The notes below the pieces were generated by a model, which was given only the letters and a program-made list of their open reading frames with translations, searched no databases and was not told where the DNA came from. From a virus, in the IMG/VR virus record IMGVR_UViG_3300035698_004667, positions 1-21,709 of that record: a stretch of 21,709 nucleotides of DNA; one strand, 5' to 3'. Of the stretch, positions 6,015 through 21,709 are shown piece by piece. The position numbers were made by a program, and so were the translations under genes. How positions within the stretch are numbered: the stretch's first letter is position 1; each line of letters begins with the position of its first letter.

Positions 6015-7570
6015 TGGCAGATGCAGAACAGAATATTGTAGTCAACATTAGAGCTATCACTAAAGGTTTTGGTACTTTAACTCCTCAATTTACAGCTATG
6101 CGTAACCAGGTTGAGAATCAAACTAAAGCCATTAGGAAGATGAAACAACCGTTGACTGCGACTGATGCTGTTTCTCGTACAACGTTTACAAACATGAATG
6201 AAAATATACAAGCGTTAGGTAATACTTCTGCTAATTTCATGCCAAAATTTAAAGATAGTATTAAACAAGTTTCTGTAGCTGGTGCAGGAATGGGACGGGT
6301 ATTTGGAATGAGTATGGGTACTCTTAAAGAGGTTAATGAGAAAGGATTTCAAAAAGGATTTACTAGGGCAGGTAGGTTTGCAAATAGAGTTAGGATGTTA
6401 ACTCATGGTATGCGTGGATTCAGGATGGAAATGTTAGGTGTCATGTTTTTCGGTATGGCAATGCAAAAATGGTTTACTGGAATGTTAAGACCTGCTGCAG
6501 AATTGTTAGGTATATTTGATTTATGGAGAATCACTTTACAAGTATTATTTCTGCCAGTATTAATTTTGCTTATGCCTTATCTTTTAGATTTACTTGAAAC
6601 TATAATAAATTTGAGTCCTGCGACTAAAACACTTATTGGTTGGTTTGTTATCTTTGGTGCAATTTTAGGTACTTTCCTTTTTAATGTTGGTATGATATCT
6701 CTAGGATTGGGTAGTGTAATCCAAGCGTTTCCTAGTCTTGGTAGTGCAATAGCAAAATTAGCACCACTTCTTAAACCGTTAGGAATTATCTTTTCTATAA
6801 TTACTATATTATGGATGTCTGATTTGGGTGGATTTAGGAATTGGGTTAAAACAACCTTAAAAGAAATAGGTGGCCTTTTCATGACTGCTTTTGAATTGAT
6901 TGGAAATGTAGTTAGTTTTGTTATTAATGTCATAACTGGCGATTTTGAAGGTATGGAAGAAGATTGGGGTAAGATTGGTGAAAATCTGTTAGATATTATC
7001 ATTAGATTAGGCACCATGATGATTAACATATTTAATTATACTTATAATGCAATATTAGATTTAACATTTAATATATTAGTTAAAGGGATTCTTAAAGCAA
7101 TTGAACTGCTTCATAAAGGAATGGCTAAGATACCTGGTGCAATTGGCCAACCATTTAGAGACTCTGCTGGAGAATTAGATACTTTATTAGCATCTATTGA
7201 AGGTAAAGCTGCAGAGATTAAAAATAATATGAAAATGGATTTACGTGAATCTGGAGATATTAGAAAATTTCTTTTTGAGAATTTCGGTGTTTTTGCAGAT
7301 GAGTTTGGTGGTGGAAAAGGTCAAGAATATTTAGATAAATTACCTGGTAATTCTAGTGGTCAAGTTTCTGATGATAGTACAAATATAACAAGTCCTTATG
7401 TTCCATTTAAATTACCTAGCAATATTACTGGACAAGGGAATAATATTAATATAACCCAAAATCTAACAGTAAGTGGTTCATTTAAAGAAGAAGTAGAAAA
7501 AATGTTAGATGAAAATAATAAAACTTTAGTTGATGATCTTCGAAGAATTAGTCCAGTAGGTGGTGGATAA
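6014..7570 (+). CDS. Tail tape measure protein
   Basis: The 518-residue protein starts directly after the chaperone pair. The N-terminal 130 residues are helical and basic. Several long hydrophobic stretches follow between about 137 and 310 (for example LQVLFLPVLILLMPYLLDLL and WFVIFGAILGTFLFNVGMI), as in tape measure proteins that enter the host membrane. The C-terminus is hydrophilic and Asn-rich, ending in a helix (FKEEVEKMLDENNKTLVDDL). By the usual rule of about 0.15 nm per residue the tail would be near 78 nm, which is short. The central and C-terminal parts are much more AT-rich than the neighbouring genes. Confidence 0.85.
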   Translation: MADAEQNIVVNIRAITKGFGTLTPQFTAMRNQVENQTKAIRKMKQPLTATDAVSRTTFTNMNENIQALGNTSANFMPKFKDSIKQVSVAGAGMGRVFGMSMGTLKEVNEKGFQKGFTRAGRFANRVRMLTHGMRGFRMEMLGVMFFGMAMQKWFTGMLRPAAELLGIFDLWRITLQVLFLPVLILLMPYLLDLLETIINLSPATKTLIGWFVIFGAILGTFLFNVGMISLGLGSVIQAFPSLGSAIAKLAPLLKPLGIIFSIITILWMSDLGGFRNWVKTTLKEIGGLFMTAFELIGNVVSFVINVITGDFEGMEEDWGKIGENLLDIIIRLGTMMINIFNYTYNAILDLTFNILVKGILKAIELLHKGMAKIPGAIGQPFRDSAGELDTLLASIEGKAAEIKNNMKMDLRESGDIRKFLFENFGVFADEFGGGKGQEYLDKLPGNSSGQVSDDSTNITSPYVPFKLPSNITGQGNNINITQNLTVSGSFKEEVEKMLDENNKTLVDDLRRISPVGGG

Positions 7571-8008: not shown

Positions 8009-11000
8009 ATGGCAATAAAAAAAAAGGTAACTATCGGATTTCTAATTTTAACTATTCTTTTATCTGGTGTAGTGTACGTTACACTTAAAAATGATTTACG
8101 TATACGTGTAGATACAGATAAAACTACATTTTATGTTAAGAACGATAACAATCGTTGGATTGTATCAGGTAGAGAATATAACAGAATATTTGACGGTACT
8201 TCAATCATGTACAGGAAAACTTCTGAATCTTACGTTAACACATATTATAACCAAACTAATGGTAGTATCTTGATTGAACGATACACGAAATATATGCGTG
8301 GACCTATACTCATTGACACGTATACATTCAACGGTAACATAGATGACATTGAACTGTTCCCGATTTCACATAAAGTTCGAATCCTTAACGGTAGTGGCTA
8401 CTTTTATAGATATTCAGTTGATGACCTTACAGGTACAGGACCTAAACGGAAAGTGTTTGATACTGAAGTTAGCTTTGGGTTAGATATGAAAGTTAAGTTT
8501 GATAGTGGTTATAGATGGGCCTGGGTAGGTTATCCTTACGGTTCAGATTCATTTGCAGTTCAATACGATATCCCTTTAGATGACGTTACGTTCAGTGTAA
8601 GATTGTTTGATCCTTCAACCGAGATCCGGTTAAGTTTAAGTAACTTTACACGTAACATTGATGTAGAGTTAGGTTCAAAGATTAACATAACTGCACATTA
8701 TAACGGTACTGTTGAATATGATATAAATCATCCTAGTTACGGTATTAATTATACTCGTGACCAGAACAATTTAACTGTAATGTTTAACATATCTTGGTTC
8801 AGGAAAGATGAACTTAATACAAGTAAAACGTATAAAGAGTTGAATTATGTAAGTACAGGTAAACTTAACAAAACTATATGGATACGTGGTCATCAATATG
8901 ATGAAATAATTAATGCTACATTAAATCTTACAGGAATTTTATCTAATAACAGTTTACCTTCGTTAGTTAAAGTATACGTCAATCGTACATTAAGTAACGA
9001 TATTAGTGTCATATCAACAGATACAAGTCTAAATTTATCTACGTTTAATGACAGTTCAGATTCTAAAAATATAACTTGGGACGAGGTTACTGGCGGTTTA
9101 ATGGTAGACTATTTGAAGTTACCTAAAGGTGCAAACGTAACTGGTGCAAGTTTAAAACTGAAAGGACATAACAATACTGTACGAGCTATAGAAACTGAAA
9201 CTTATATTGACGATTTTAATGCAGGTGAACTTGATCGTTCAATATGGGCAAACATTTCTGGTGGTCAACAAGCACTTGCACAGACATGGGTAGTAGAAAA
9301 AGAGAGTGCGTTATGGGTAGGTTCTATAAGTTCACCTAACACACATGGACTTAATAACGGTACTGCTGCTTCATGGTTAAATAATACAAACTATCCCGAT
9401 TTACGTACAAATAATCATACCATGAGTCAAATTTATATTCATACATCAAGGACAGGATGGGGACCTGGAGAAACAGTTAGTATGATAAAAATCATGGATG
9501 AAACTTTAATTAATAGCATGGTTTCTGATAGATATACATTTAGTTCTACTTCAGGTATTGACATTCTTGGTACGTATGATAGACCGTTTTCTGCAACATA
9601 TACAAACATAGTGATAAGTTACGATCCGTCTACACATTTTGTAACTGTATTTACAACTGAAACTGGTACCAATTCTTATGACGTAAGTAGCTTAAATTGG
9701 GGAACTGAACAAATTTTACCTGTATTTTATACGTTAGGTAGAAAGAATAGTGAACTAAGTGAACAGTTTCAAGGTGATATGAAAATATACGATTATAATT
9801 ATACAACAAGGGCCAATTTAACTGATTATGTAACTAACGGTTGGTTAGAAGTTGGTATCCTTAGTGGAAATAGAAACTGGAACTATACATTAACGTTTAA
9901 TGTTAGTTCTAATGTAACTTCATTAGAAAATCCTCTTAACGATTTCATGGATACTTGTGTACCAGATCCTTTAGGATACTGTTATCCTTTACTCACTTTT
10001 TATTCAGAAACCCAAGGTATAATCAACGTATCAAACATATTAGTTAATTATACTTATGAATGGAACCCGGTTGAACTTGACACAGATTTAATTCAAGGTT
10101 TTTTACAGAATAGTAGCGGTTATGTAAATATCCCTATTGACATTGAAATATATTTAAACGGTACATTGAACGTTACTGGTGTCAAGTATGATTATGCAGG
10201 TGGTAATAGGACATACGCTATTAAAGCACATAACAGTAACTATTCTATAAACAAGACGTATAATATGACGTTCTGGTACAGTGACTGGTTTTATGAGTTC
10301 GTTCCACATATACAATATTTAGAGTTTATTCCAAGTTCACCTAACTCAAAGAATGTTACACCGTACGGTCAAAACATAAATCGTGGTTTAATCAATTTAA
10401 CTTATACGGGTTATGGTAGTAACGCTAACCTTTACTTTTATTCAAACGAATCCCATTCTTGTGTAAGCACGTTCAGTAGCGATACTAACACAAAACCTAT
10501 CGCTTCTTTATACGAAAAAGTAATTTTAGATATGCCTATGGATATTGATGTTAGAGACATATCTGGTAACAGTAATGATGGTGCTGTGTTTGGTGCTAAT
10601 TATACACTTGAAGGTAAAGTTGGAGCTGCATACACGTTTGATGGATTAAATGATTATATTAATTTATCAACAACACTATGGAACTCTGATGCAGGAACAT
10701 TTACAACATGGGTATATCGTGAAATAAATGAAACATCGGTACTTGACCAAGCAGTATTAAGCATATATGAAAGTTTTAATGATAGATTAGATTTGTATTG
10801 TGTTCCACGAACTAGTTCAATAAAAGTAACTTATTGGAATAGGACAGAATGGGAAATATCAAGGTTAGGTGAATGTCCTGTAAATACATGGTTACATCTT
10901 GGATTAGTTTGGAACAGAACAACATTTTCGTTATACCTTAATGGTATATTTAAATCAATGGAAAATATAACAGGTGGACAAAATTTATCTACTTTACAAC

Positions 11001-15135: not shown

Positions 15136-15272
15136 TTTATTTCTCTCGTTTGTGTGGGTTTGTCGGATAATAATTCCCATTGTTCTATCTTGTGTATTAA
15201 TTGATAACCTACTGAAGCTTTTATTTCTCCTTTGTCAACAAATTCGTAAACTATTCTTTTAATTTCTTCCAT
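15117..15272 (-). CDS. 51-residue hypothetical protein, last gene of the leftward block
   Basis: A short ORF starts inside the last codons of the RNA ligase gene (14-base overlap) and encodes a helical, acidic/basic peptide that starts MEEIKRIVYEFVDKGEIKAS and includes KIEQWELLSDKP. AGGAT lies about 11 bases before the ATG. Codon use and the tight overlap fit the neighbouring genes. It extends into the inverted repeat at the convergence point. I cannot assign a function. Confidence 0.5.
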   Translation of the reverse strand: MEEIKRIVYEFVDKGEIKASVGYQLIHKIEQWELLSDKPTQTREINPYQHD

Positions 15273-15975
15273 CTTTATTCACATCCTTTGGCATTTCGGA
15301 TAACTCATTGAAATCCTTGAACTTAACTTTGAATATTAATCGTTCTTTGTATTTATTCAATAATACAGGTTCAAACTTATATACAAGTCCTTCAGGTTTA
15401 CCACCATCACCATCTTTAATCAAAGTTTCTGTAAAAACATTTAAATCATTTAAACAACCTTGATATTGTATAATATCAACTTCTCCAAAAATAGGAACTA
15501 TATTTAATTGATTATCAATACAAACCTTTTCAACATATTTAAAATCTTGATATGCTTCTCCGATTCTTATATCAAATACTCTAAAATTCTTTTCTTTAGA
15601 ATATATACCACCTTTTTGAACTCCTGCACCATATCCTTCACCATAAATAGTAATTGTTGAATCAACATCTTTAAAGTATTCTTTAAGCTTATTAAGATTA
15701 ACTTCTTTAAGACAATCCATATACTGTTTAGATGATTTATCATTTTGGTTTAAAATAAGTTTTCTTGAACCAATAAGAGTTAATCTAGGATGTTCATTAT
15801 CTGATTTTGTTAATATAATTCTTATATTAGTTCCATCTATCTTTTCAGTAAGAATCCATTTTCCTTTAGGTAATTCCTGGGATAATTCATTAGTATTCTT
15901 AAACTTATCATCCTTTTTGAAAGGACTACTAAATTTATAATATTTTGTAAAATCGTTTAATTCATTTATTTCCAT
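15259..15975 (-). CDS. ATP-dependent RNA ligase, Rnl2-like
   Basis: The 238-residue protein carries all main motifs of covalent nucleotidyltransferases in order: motif I EKIDGTN (adenylated K45), motif III IYGEGYG (110-116), IIIa FRVFDIR (131-137), IV PEGLVYK (194-200) and V IFKVKFK (214-220). The spacing and the short length fit the RNA ligase family typified by T4 Rnl2. It would seal RNA nicks using ATP. Many viruses use such ligases to repair RNA cut by host defence nucleases. The ATG overlaps the stop of the radical SAM gene (TAATG), with AGGTGAT close upstream. DNA ligase is less likely, as no extra OB-fold or BRCT domain is present. Confidence 0.85.
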   Translation of the reverse strand: MEINELNDFTKYYKFSSPFKKDDKFKNTNELSQELPKGKWILTEKIDGTNIRIILTKSDNEHPRLTLIGSRKLILNQNDKSSKQYMDCLKEVNLNKLKEYFKDVDSTITIYGEGYGAGVQKGGIYSKEKNFRVFDIRIGEAYQDFKYVEKVCIDNQLNIVPIFGEVDIIQYQGCLNDLNVFTETLIKDGDGGKPEGLVYKFEPVLLNKYKERLIFKVKFKDFNELSEMPKDVNKDGRN

Positions 15976-16706
15976 TATTTATCACCTTTCGTTTTGTTGG
16001 ATTTATGTGAGTAAAGATAATCCATAGCTTCATATTGTCTTTGAGTTATTGCAACATTATGAGATCTACACAATTTACCAAACAATACACATTCATCATG
16101 TGTCCAATAAACTGGTTCAACTGATCCTCTCCTTTGATTATCATACCAACAATCCCCTATTTCAATTCTTAAATCTTTTAGGATCTTTAACTTTTCAACA
16201 CATTCATCAAAAGTTACTTTTCCATTAACAAGCATAAATATCTGAATTCTTTTGTATCCTGCTTCTTTCATCCAGTTAATTGCTTGAATAAACTTATCTT
16301 TTTCTGCAACACTTCGATCCCATGCAATTCTAAGCCCATTTGCATAATTTCTTTTATTATTAAATCTTCCAAATCTACTTTTCTTTAAAGCATATATAAT
16401 CTCTTTTGTTATTATAGTGAAATCTAATCCACATTGAAAATCATAATAGACTACTCTTTTATTAACCTTAATTCTTCCTAATAATTCTATTGTTTCAATA
16501 GGATTTATATGTGCATAAAGGAAATTCATATCAAGGATCACAACTTTATTTCTCTTTATTTCTGGAACTTCATAATATAATTTATCAGTAGGACAATAAC
16601 AATTCCAACAATTTCTAAAGCATCCATCAGATAATCTGATCCATTGTTCTGTTTCATTGAGTTTATTATAAAACTCCCTATGATATTCTATGTTGTCTTC
16701 TTTCAT
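15975..16706 (-). CDS. Radical SAM protein of unknown substrate
   Basis: The 243-residue protein has the iron-sulfur cluster motif C-x3-C-x2-C (C29, C33, C36, in DGCFRNCWNCYCP) and the partial barrel features that follow: VVILDMNFLYAHI, VVYYDFQCGLDFTIITKEI, LRIAWDRS and AGYKRIQIFMLVN. These match a radical SAM group I associate with phages and archaea whose reaction is unknown. ATG 16706 is chosen over 16751 because it overlaps the upstream methyltransferase stop as ATGA and the longer start has no fitting ribosome binding site. Flanking methyltransferase and RNA ligase genes suggest nucleic acid modification, but this is inference. Confidence 0.8.
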   Translation of the reverse strand: MKEDNIEYHREFYNKLNETEQWIRLSDGCFRNCWNCYCPTDKLYYEVPEIKRNKVVILDMNFLYAHINPIETIELLGRIKVNKRVVYYDFQCGLDFTIITKEIIYALKKSRFGRFNNKRNYANGLRIAWDRSVAEKDKFIQAINWMKEAGYKRIQIFMLVNGKVTFDECVEKLKILKDLRIEIGDCWYDNQRRGSVEPVYWTHDECVLFGKLCRSHNVAITQRQYEAMDYLYSHKSNKTKGDK

Positions 16707-17188
16707 TGTAATTCTGATAACTCTGTTTGTATCTTTTTTTCGACTACACATATTGTATCATTATGATTCCCTCCATGTGGTACTAAAAGTATCTCCTTGA
16801 TTTCAAATCCTCTACATTTACCAAGACCTTGACTTGACCATCCAAATGATATACATAAACCATTTGGTTTAATTACTCTTGCAGTTTCATCTTTCCATTT
16901 AGACCATACAGATGATTTAGTATCATGTAACACTTCTCCTCTTGATTCATAACATTCTTTAAGTTGTCTTGGACTATAAGGGGGGTCAAATAAAGCTAAT
17001 TCAACAGAATTATTATTATATTTTTTTAATAAATCTAATACATCTTCTTTATATGGATATGGAAATAAATCTAATGTTATTCCATTACCCCAACCTTTTT
17101 TACAATTATAAAGCTCTATTAATTCTTTTATAGGTTTAATTGTAAATGTCTTTTTATTTGGCATAGCCCATATTCTTTTTATATACAT
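16703..17188 (-). CDS. Small DPPY-type adenine DNA methyltransferase-like protein
   Basis: The 161-residue protein has the catalytic DPPY motif (68-71, ALFDPPYSPRQLKECYES), a downstream block (ETARVIKPNGLCISFGW, 101-117) and a C-terminal block (FEIKEILLVPHGGNHNDTICVVE). These match a compact group of phage methyltransferase-like proteins. The usual SAM-binding FxGxG motif is not obvious; GWGNG at 32-36 may stand in for it. AAGGAGG lies 8 bases before the start. It is co-transcribed with the radical SAM gene and overlaps it by 4 bases, suggesting a shared function. It may modify viral DNA or may need a partner to be active. Confidence 0.7.
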   Translation of the reverse strand: MYIKRIWAMPNKKTFTIKPIKELIELYNCKKGWGNGITLDLFPYPYKEDVLDLLKKYNNNSVELALFDPPYSPRQLKECYESRGEVLHDTKSSVWSKWKDETARVIKPNGLCISFGWSSQGLGKCRGFEIKEILLVPHGGNHNDTICVVEKKIQTELSELQ

Positions 17189-17191
17189 ATT

Positions 17192-18001
17192 CTATTCCTC
17201 CTTTTTGGGTTGGTCTGTGAGTGTATCATTAAAATTACTCTGATTTAACCTTTTATTTGCTATATCACAATATTCTTTACTTATTTCAAATCCCATAAAG
17301 TTTCTATCCAACATCTTTGATATTTTTGTAGTTGTTCCACTACCATTAAATATATCTAAAACTAAATCCTTTTTATTACTCCAACTTAAAACATGGTCTT
17401 TTATTAATTGTTCTGGAAACATTGCAGGATGAAATCGTTTAGAATTACTTTTTTCAGCAAAACATTTCCAAATATTAAATCTTTGACCGTATTGTGGTAT
17501 AACTTGTCCGATATTACTTAATTGTTTTGTTGTACCATCTTTTTGTCTAAAAGTTCCATGTTTTTTTCTATTAAAACTTTTATTCTTTCTATCTTTAATT
17601 CGCTTCAATGTTTTTATATTTCCCTTACTTATAATAAACATATATTCAAATACGGGTGCATATCTTTTTTTTAATGAACCAACAGCTGTAAATGTACCTT
17701 TGTTCCAAATCATAGTATCATGTAAATTAAAACCAATTTCTTTAAAGAATAATACTTGTTTAAAAGAAGTTCCAGTTTCACTTCCATTTATTGTAGCATC
17801 TCCAACAATCCAAACAATAATACCTCCATTTTTAGTAATTCTGTATAATTCTTTTACTATTGCTTTAAAATTAAAAGAATAACCTTTGTAATCCCTAAGA
17901 TTGTCATAAGGTGGGGAAGTTATAGTTAAATCAATTGAATTATCTTCTAATTGTTTCATACCTTCTAGGCAATCCATATTATAAACTTTATTAATTTCCA
18001 T
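17192..18001 (-). CDS. DNA methyltransferase, beta class, TSPPY type
   Basis: The 269-residue protein has the catalytic motif TSPPY at 28-32 and the SAM-binding motif DIFNGSGTT at 216-224, in that order, so the target-recognition region lies between them (beta-class layout). SPPY is more common in N4-cytosine enzymes, DPPY in N6-adenine enzymes. HPAMFPEQL (191-199) is the usual segment before motif I. An upstream extension to 18082 was rejected: it is read in another frame by a zinc-ribbon gene, and the start MEINKVYNMDCLEG matches its paralogue at 18473-19180. No clear ribosome binding site is seen; it overlaps the zinc-ribbon gene by 11 bases. Confidence 0.85.
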   Translation of the reverse strand: MEINKVYNMDCLEGMKQLEDNSIDLTITSPPYDNLRDYKGYSFNFKAIVKELYRITKNGGIIVWIVGDATINGSETGTSFKQVLFFKEIGFNLHDTMIWNKGTFTAVGSLKKRYAPVFEYMFIISKGNIKTLKRIKDRKNKSFNRKKHGTFRQKDGTTKQLSNIGQVIPQYGQRFNIWKCFAEKSNSKRFHPAMFPEQLIKDHVLSWSNKKDLVLDIFNGSGTTTKISKMLDRNFMGFEISKEYCDIANKRLNQSNFNDTLTDQPKKEE

Positions 18002-18104
18002 CATTTTTGTTTGATTCACATTTGTGGTTTTCACAATTACATAAAAGAATACCACATTTATCACATCTAAAAGATGTTCCACAATTACTACAATCTGGGT
18101 CCAT
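17991..18104 (-). CDS. Tiny zinc-ribbon protein (37 residues)
   Basis: A 37-codon ORF with a good ribosome binding site (AGGTGAG about 8 bases before the ATG) encodes a Cys-rich peptide: C5-x2-C8, C14-x2-C17, C22-x-C24 and C29, with H27 near the end. This is enough to bind one or two zinc ions. It starts one base after the stop of the previous gene and runs into the start of the methyltransferase. The regular Cys spacing is hard to obtain by chance. It could be a nucleic acid or protein adaptor for the methyltransferase. No family is assigned. Confidence 0.65.
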   Translation of the reverse strand: MDPDCSNCGTSFRCDKCGILLCNCENHKCESNKNDGN

Positions 18105-18278: not shown

Positions 18279-18476
18279 CTACATCCAATCATTAAAATCA
18301 CGATAAGCTATATTCATGTTTTTATATCCAGATGCAAAACTTACTTGTGGAGTTTCTTTTATCCTTATTGATAATGCTCCTGTTTTTGGATTAAATTTCC
18401 ATTCTAGTCCTATTTCCATAATTTTATCTGGATTTTCTATTTCAATTTTCTTAACGTGTAATTGACATTTTCTCAT
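18279..18476 (-). CDS. 65-residue hypothetical protein
   Basis: The protein (MRKCQLHVKKIEIENPDKIM...) is rich in beta strands (LHVKKIEIE, GLEWKFNPKTGALSIRIKE) and ends FNDWM. ATG 18476 overlaps the upstream methyltransferase stop (ATGA) with GGTGGA just before it, so it is preferred over the start at 18503. It may be a small partner of that methyltransferase, but nothing in the sequence shows a function. Confidence 0.6.
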   Translation of the reverse strand: MRKCQLHVKKIEIENPDKIMEIGLEWKFNPKTGALSIRIKETPQVSFASGYKNMNIAYRDFNDWM

Positions 18477-19180
18477 TGTTCCACCGATTTCTGAGTAAAC
18501 CAATTATTCATATTAGATTGATTTAATCTTTTTATAGCAATATCATAATATTTCTTTTCAAGTTCAAAACCAATATAATCACGTTCTAATTGTTTACAAG
18601 CAACTGCAGTAGTTCCAGAACCCATGAATGGATCAAGAATTAAATCACCACAATTTGAACTTAATCTAATGTATCTTTTTATTAATTCTATTGGTTTTTG
18701 AGTGGGATGTTCATTACTTACTCCATTTGTAAAACAAAAAAATGATTTAAAATAATAATTATAATCTAATTTACCATTCCAATATGCACCTTTGCTTCTT
18801 AAAAAAATAACATATTCAATTTCAGCAAGATACGATGAATTTTTACATGGAATTGGTGCTTTTTTATTAAGTGTTAGAATATCATAATTTAATTTTCTTT
18901 TGATTGCTTCATTTAAATATAATGGAACTAATGCTTTATTACAAAAGAAATAAGCATTTACTTTATCTTGTTGTAAATCTAATAATGATGGTATAAACTT
19001 ATTAAAATCAAATTTATTAAGTTCTTTTTCCCCAATCTTTGTATATAACTCCCTCATTCCAACTATTCCTTTCCCTGAACTTTGAAATTCATATGGTGGA
19101 TCTGCTATAATTAAATTAGGAATTGGACAATCTTTTAATCCTTCTAAACAATCCATATTGTATATTTTATTTATTTCCAT
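18473..19180 (-). CDS. DNA adenine methyltransferase-like, DPPY type
   Basis: The 235-residue protein has DPPY at 27-30, HPTQKP at 158-163 and the SAM motif DPFMGSGTT at 183-191, in beta-class order, with a recognition region of about 125 residues between. It most likely methylates adenine N6 in viral DNA. Its first 14 residues (MEINKIYNMDCLEG) and its end (IKRLNQSN) closely match the methyltransferase at 17192-18001 while the middle differs, so the two are paralogues with different targets. GAGGT lies about 14 bases upstream of the ATG, and a 10-codon ORF ends just before it. Confidence 0.85.
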   Translation of the reverse strand: MEINKIYNMDCLEGLKDCPIPNLIIADPPYEFQSSGKGIVGMRELYTKIGEKELNKFDFNKFIPSLLDLQQDKVNAYFFCNKALVPLYLNEAIKRKLNYDILTLNKKAPIPCKNSSYLAEIEYVIFLRSKGAYWNGKLDYNYYFKSFFCFTNGVSNEHPTQKPIELIKRYIRLSSNCGDLILDPFMGSGTTAVACKQLERDYIGFELEKKYYDIAIKRLNQSNMNNWFTQKSVEQ

Positions 19181-21505: not shown

Positions 21506-21709
21506 TCATAATCTTTTAGGCAGGATACCCACTAATTTATTAGTGGGAGGAATGCCGTCCTCCTTTGAATTTTCTGCAAGAGGAAGAAGCGTTCTTTGAC
21601 TTAATCTCTTTTTAGCCATATTAACATATTTCTCCGAAATCTCAAACCCTATAAAGTTTCTATTGTTTTCTTGAGATACTACTGCTGTTGTTCCACTGCC
21701 CATAAATGG
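21506..21709 (-). CDS. DNA methyltransferase, C-terminal part, cut by window edge
   Basis: The reading frame enters from beyond the window as PFMGSGTTAV, the SAM-binding motif I of a beta-class methyltransferase, followed by NFIGFEISEKYVNMAKKRLSQ, the same ending as the two complete paralogues. After RLSQ the tail of about 30 residues (starting RTLLPLAENSKEDGIPP) differs from both and is encoded by a hairpin-rich stretch. The catalytic PPY motif and the start lie outside the window. Confidence 0.8.
   Translation of the reverse strand, partial: PFMGSGTTAVVSQENNRNFIGFEISEKYVNMAKKRLSQRTLLPLAENSKEDGIPPTNKLVGILPKRL
21528..21563 (-). repeat. Two overlapping inverted repeats in the end of a methyltransferase gene
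   Basis: One perfect repeat has 9-bp arms (21528-21536 with 21539-21547, arms CCCACTAAT/ATTAGTGGG) around two bases. A second has 6-bp arms (GGAGGA 21546-21551 with TCCTCC 21558-21563). They share two bases, so only one can form fully at a time. The stretch is clearly richer in G+C than its surroundings and encodes the atypical C-terminal tail. It resembles subterminal hairpins of IS200/IS605-type elements, but no transposase or TnpB gene is in the window. Confidence 0.5.

Follow-up and report, generated by a model that had tools for sequence, protein, structure and literature searches.

The window analysed here is the whole 21,709-nt (21.7-kb) stretch of record IMGVR_UViG_3300035698_004667, from an uncultivated tailed virus. 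Its plus strand carries structural genes, including those for an SU10-type capsid protein and tail proteins, and its minus strand carries a cassette with genes for a DPPY protein, a radical-SAM protein and an Rnl2-type RNA ligase (Table 1). The ORFs confirmed that the three genes are joined by overlaps, as had been noted in a sequence-only reading of this DNA: the DPPY and radical-SAM genes overlap by ATGA, and the radical-SAM stop codon and the ligase start codon share TAATG. Ribosome-binding sites precede the DPPY start (GGAGG) and the ligase start (AAAGGTGAT). Because the same minus-strand cassette has at least two further methylase genes and part of a third, the adjacency of a methylase is by itself weak evidence in this window.

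Table 1. Genes and motifs discussed in the text, in window coordinates
Feature	Position	Strand	Remarks
DPPY methyltransferase-like protein	16703..17188	-	161 aa; phrog_11619, short clade without motif I/II segment
DPPY motif (methylase motif IV), residues 68-71	16976..16987	-	aligned with family
Deletion site, residues 39-46 (LDLFPYPY)	17051..17074	-	relatives have ~20-25 extra residues here (alignments)
Radical-SAM protein	15975..16706	-	243 aa from ATG within ATGA overlap; phrog_9298 E=4.1e-6
CFRNCWNC (CxxxCxxC cluster motif)	16599..16622	-	canonical radical-SAM motif
Rnl2-type RNA ligase, nucleotidyltransferase domain only	15259..15975	-	238 aa
Full-length N4/N6 DNA methylase	17192..18082	-	PF01555 E=2.1e-42; ends 3 nt before DPPY gene
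Second full-length N6/N4 DNA methylase, same cassette	18473..19180	-	PF01555 E=4.1e-29
C-terminal end of third methylase (MGSGTTAV...)	21506-21703		cut by window edge

Alignments placed the radical-SAM protein as a relative of phrog_9298 that is short and divergent. With the phrog_9298 proteins of Bacteroides LoVEphage, Marinitoga camini virus 1, vir215 and vir335, it shares CxxxCxxC and a common core, as well as a D[MN]N block after the second strand and a CG/QG[LF]D block, but the window type is ~60 residues shorter and lacks their N-terminal NIGLxxVDS...GGTGY region. Its branch also differs from phrog_9298 in having the extra cysteines C107, C184 and C201 (numbering of a 258-aa version that starts at an upstream ATG at 16751), which do not vary among the five members of the short branch that were aligned and could possibly form a second cluster or a substrate site. 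Homologs align from roughly the start in the ATGA overlap, and residues 1-24 of the 258-aa version have a pLDDT of <50 in the model. The cluster cysteines, previously given as C29/C33/C36, are indeed present and correspond to C44/C48/C51 in the 258-aa numbering, from which it follows that the earlier numbering started at the ATGA overlap.

The Pfam PF04055 match to the radical-SAM protein stays under its cut-off, a sequence search of solved structures gave no match, and exact-peptide scans of viral and genome collections returned no close relative; only alignment queries found relatives. The few close ones are from vir520 (a Methanofastidiosa virus), two IMG/VR contigs, a Hadesarchaea MAG contig (L036) and one partial sequence from the same phylum. 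CxxxCxxC is kept in L036 and in the phrog_9298 rows, and three other relatives have C-x3/5-H-x2-C instead. In these three (L002:19947-20702, L013:5965-6663 and L035:6001-6684), the second cluster cysteine is replaced by histidine, which is unusual for a radical-SAM cluster; the variant motifs read GCPWQHEYC, GCPYGHEYC and GCPWSDIHDYC, that is, C-x3-H-x2-C, or C-x5-H-x2-C in vir520. The vir520 protein, which is 35% identical to the window protein over most of its length, thus differs from it in the cluster motif; its gene has as neighbours a Holliday junction resolvase gene and, four genes upstream, a gene for a short C5-type methylase. The structural model of the window protein (pLDDT 75, pTM 0.74) has the partial TIM barrel of a radical-SAM fold, and the top Foldseek matches were radical-SAM enzymes (MgmA, MTAB, AprD4 and MiaB; best E=4.5e-5), grouping the model with the B12-type and MiaB-like enzymes.

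The ligase matched PF09414 (E=4.7e-19), phrog_548 (E=7.2e-28) and, in the PDB, T4 Rnl2 (1s68; E=2.6e-5). Like T4 Rnl2, it has all nucleotidyltransferase motifs of an Rnl2-type ligase, namely, I (EKIDGTN, residues 44-50), III (YGEGYG, 111-116), IIIa (FRVFDI, 131-136), IV (EGLVYK, 195-200) and V (KVKFKD, 216-221). Unlike T4 Rnl2, it has no C-terminal domain: the protein stops 17 residues past KVKFKD, and TIGR02307 scores well under its cut-off. The description of an Rnl2-like ligase with "all motifs" therefore holds for the nucleotidyltransferase domain and not for the C-terminal Rnl2 domain. In T4 Rnl2, loss of the C-terminal domain makes the enzyme defective in step 1 of ligation, and losing merely 15 C-terminal residues causes a step 1 defect equal to that of the truncated enzyme (PMC3514331).

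The sequence-only reading had treated the three genes as a unit, with their co-occurrence in viral genomes as the check. That check found them rarely together. The radical-SAM gene was detectable in 0/31 records with DPPY relatives, in a search, run without a positive control, whose query alignment included rows from records known to bear the family. An Rnl2-type RNA ligase scored above the cut-off in one of these 31 records, a 357-kb phage, and a PF09414 (Rnl2-type) ligase was found in none of the 32 radical-SAM records. On these counts, we rejected the trio as a conserved system; it is not a recurrent module, with the proviso that many records of both sets are fragments, so that absence is not proof. 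In L066, a gene of phrog_9298 lies ~5 kb from one resembling phrog_11619.

That the radical-SAM and DPPY proteins may nevertheless belong together is suggested by L036, in which the same radical-SAM family is fused in-frame to a DPPY methyltransferase: a single 419-aa frame (L036:4775-6034) encodes a radical-SAM domain and, behind it, a methylase domain with DPPY. The earlier pairing of these two proteins is thus favoured by the fusion and disfavoured by the absence of a detectable radical-SAM gene from the records with DPPY relatives. The fused methylase is only remotely related to the window DPPY protein and matched phrog_11619 weakly (E=0.0057; hhalign E=1.5e-4); it retains CFGKTDG...TVDKNP, which resembles motifs I and II and which the window protein lacks. 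The next gene after the fusion (6078-6704) is methylase-like. Elsewhere on the contig, the gene at 9260-10420 reads like a C5 methylase. In the Oscillospiraceae phage NatCom_21982 (L086:1779-5908), a relative of the radical-SAM gene overlaps an upstream PF01555 methylase gene and adjoins a C5-methylase-like gene, the three following one another with overlaps.

Across the 32 radical-SAM records, 7 had a methylase within 1.5 kb of the radical-SAM gene, where uniform placement gave a mean of 2.47 (p 0.005); at 3 kb the count was 11 against a mean of 3.88, a level that 0/5000 random placements reached. Small control sets from these records were similarly near methylases at 3 kb (PAPS-reductase-like genes, 5/11; SSB genes, 3/7), so this proximity does not single out the radical-SAM gene and reflects early-gene clustering; because the controls match the above-uniform level, we discarded it as specific evidence. 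It is quite conceivable, if somewhat doubtful, that the radical-SAM gene has no connection with the methylases and is an early gene, with for example a host protein, tRNA or small molecule as the target of its product, that lies near them through clustering in the early region. The control counts fit this explanation, as do the 0/31 result and the presence among the closest folds of MgmA, which is a protein C-methylase, and AprD4, which is a sugar dehydratase; however, the in-frame fusion in L036 and the methylase overlap in NatCom_21982 exceed loose clustering.

The DPPY protein matched phrog_11619 (E=1.5e-34) and is 48% identical to a staphylococcal phage "adenine-specific DNA methylase." It carries motif IV (DPPY) as in the DNA N6-adenine/N4-cytosine methylases of this family, and its identity to the phrog_11619 methylases of Staphylococcus LSA2311, Streptococcus Bonnie and 23TH, and Serratia BF is ~43-57%, with shared DPPYSPRQ and HGG.HNDTI blocks and a shared N-terminal RIWAMPN..TF.IKPI. 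These methylases differ from the window protein and its clade in having a DPFANxS...TNDLDP segment; in ordinary family members, this segment (VDPFANxS...ITNDLDP) stands just ahead of the DPPY block and contains the SAM-pocket motifs I and II. Alignment with relatives showed that the SAM-binding motif I and the acidic residue of motif II are absent from the window protein and its clade, and this comparison bears out, as a deletion of motif I, the earlier remark that the protein has no obvious SAM motif.

The same deletion was found by alignment in L014/L078, L077, L079, L080, L081, L083 and L085. These short proteins run from a DPF-like remnant directly to P[FYH]P[FY] and then to a motif III-like aspartate, and DPPY is retained throughout except in L081, which has DPVY. 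In a phylogenetic tree that omitted L080 because it nearly duplicates L079, and in which the deleted columns were kept (gaps carry no signal), the window protein and at least six viral contigs formed one clade with support of 96/90. Since at least six other contigs carry the same deletion and group as one clade, the missing SAM motif is inherited, and we rejected an artefact as its cause. The structural model (pLDDT 79) has fewer strands than a full class I methylase fold. It resembles DNA N6-adenine methylases in Foldseek, with TTHA0409 (E=1.5e-5), RsrI and CcrM as matches and TM-scores of ≤0.48. Because the motif I/II segment is deleted, we class the protein as methylase-like rather than as a proven methylase.

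The full-length methylase directly upstream of the DPPY gene is a possible alternative partner of the DPPY protein. Genes of the short clade adjoin full methylases in the window (PF01555), and L081 has an upstream NPPY methylase-like gene and L083 a downstream gene that starts like a C5 methylase; beyond the window, the short-clade loci had no radical-SAM gene that we could find. The short protein could accordingly be an accessory subunit of an ordinary full methylase, unconnected to the radical-SAM protein, but the short-clade loci L077 and L078 have no adjoining methylase, and the partner types vary (NPPY methylase-like, C5 and N4/N6), so that no specific partner is conserved; we regard this as unlikely. 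It is still less likely that the protein is a minimal DNA methylase that binds SAM through a rebuilt pocket (the DPF remnant, the PYPY loop and the motif III aspartate). In its favour, the clade retains D49 as the motif III-like aspartate, along with DPPY and with DPF in its original or a variant form, and the fold of the model looks methylase-like, its best Foldseek matches being DNA methylases; against it, the motif I loop, the next helix and the motif II acidic residue are missing in every aligned clade member and L081 has DPVY in place of DPPY.

We favour, with a probability of roughly 0.4, the reading that the three genes belong to an anti-restriction and nucleic-acid-processing cassette, whose radical-SAM and DPPY proteins may share a nucleic-acid substrate, with the ligase working apart from them. 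The DPPY protein would no longer bind SAM in the usual way and would serve as a base-recognising subunit through its DPPY loop, its partner being either a full methylase encoded next to it or else, as far as this virus is concerned, the radical-SAM protein. The latter would modify a nucleic-acid base via 5'-deoxyadenosyl radical chemistry, and this modification would help the viral DNA to escape restriction. The ligase would act separately on broken RNA and, its C-terminal domain being absent, would depend on a partner or on a pre-adenylated end. Since the relatives of the three genes do not travel as a set, cooperation towards an exotic DNA base is possible for the first two only. The gene overlaps and ribosome-binding sites, the L036 fusion, the NatCom_21982 overlap, the methylases in the cassette and the Foldseek placements of both models are consistent with this reading, as is a locus suspected in Thermus phages (PMC11437467); the lack of co-occurrence in the 31 records, the non-specific proximity to methylases, and the remoteness of the L036 methylase, with its motif I/II-like segment, argue against it.

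Little was found in the open literature on base hypermodification by phage radical-SAM enzymes. In the Thermus phages Cumys and phiMa, the authors suspect that a radical-SAM locus produces an unknown modification of DNA, and the module is linked to DUF483 and not to a DPPY protein (PMC11437467). phiMa and Cumys were absent from the tblastn results with the window radical-SAM protein.

A bolder version of the favoured reading would see in the short DPPY clade a methylase fold that has lost its cofactor pocket and become a base-presenting subunit, which in this virus would flip out a base and pass it to a radical-SAM enzyme for modification at a carbon atom; the two would form a new viral DNA modification complex, and the fused protein of L036 would represent a form of it whose methylase is intact. 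We consider this a long shot. If the pair does work together, a widespread phage radical-SAM family without a known reaction would gain a class of substrates open to testing, namely DNA or RNA bases. Independently of any pairing, a methylase clade that lacks the SAM-motif segment yet keeps the catalytic loop has taken an unusual step in evolution and is a simple target for biochemistry.

Three further neighbourhoods of radical-SAM genes were recorded. In Bacteroides phage LoVEphage (L041:4695-8066), the radical-SAM gene, a Dam-like methylase gene (in two frames) and an RtcB ligase gene lie within ~3.4 kb; among the phrog_9298 loci scanned with LoVEphage seeds, this order recurred only in the near-identical phage PV4-TP1 (L042), and we took it as a coincidence rather than a convergent trio. 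A DUF5131 gene (phage Gp37/Gp68-like, with CxxxCxxC) at L013:5186-5866 immediately precedes the radical-SAM gene and shares its strand. PAPS-reductase-like genes occur in 11 places in the 32 radical-SAM records, and in 7 of these the phrog_9298 gene is no more than 3 kb away.
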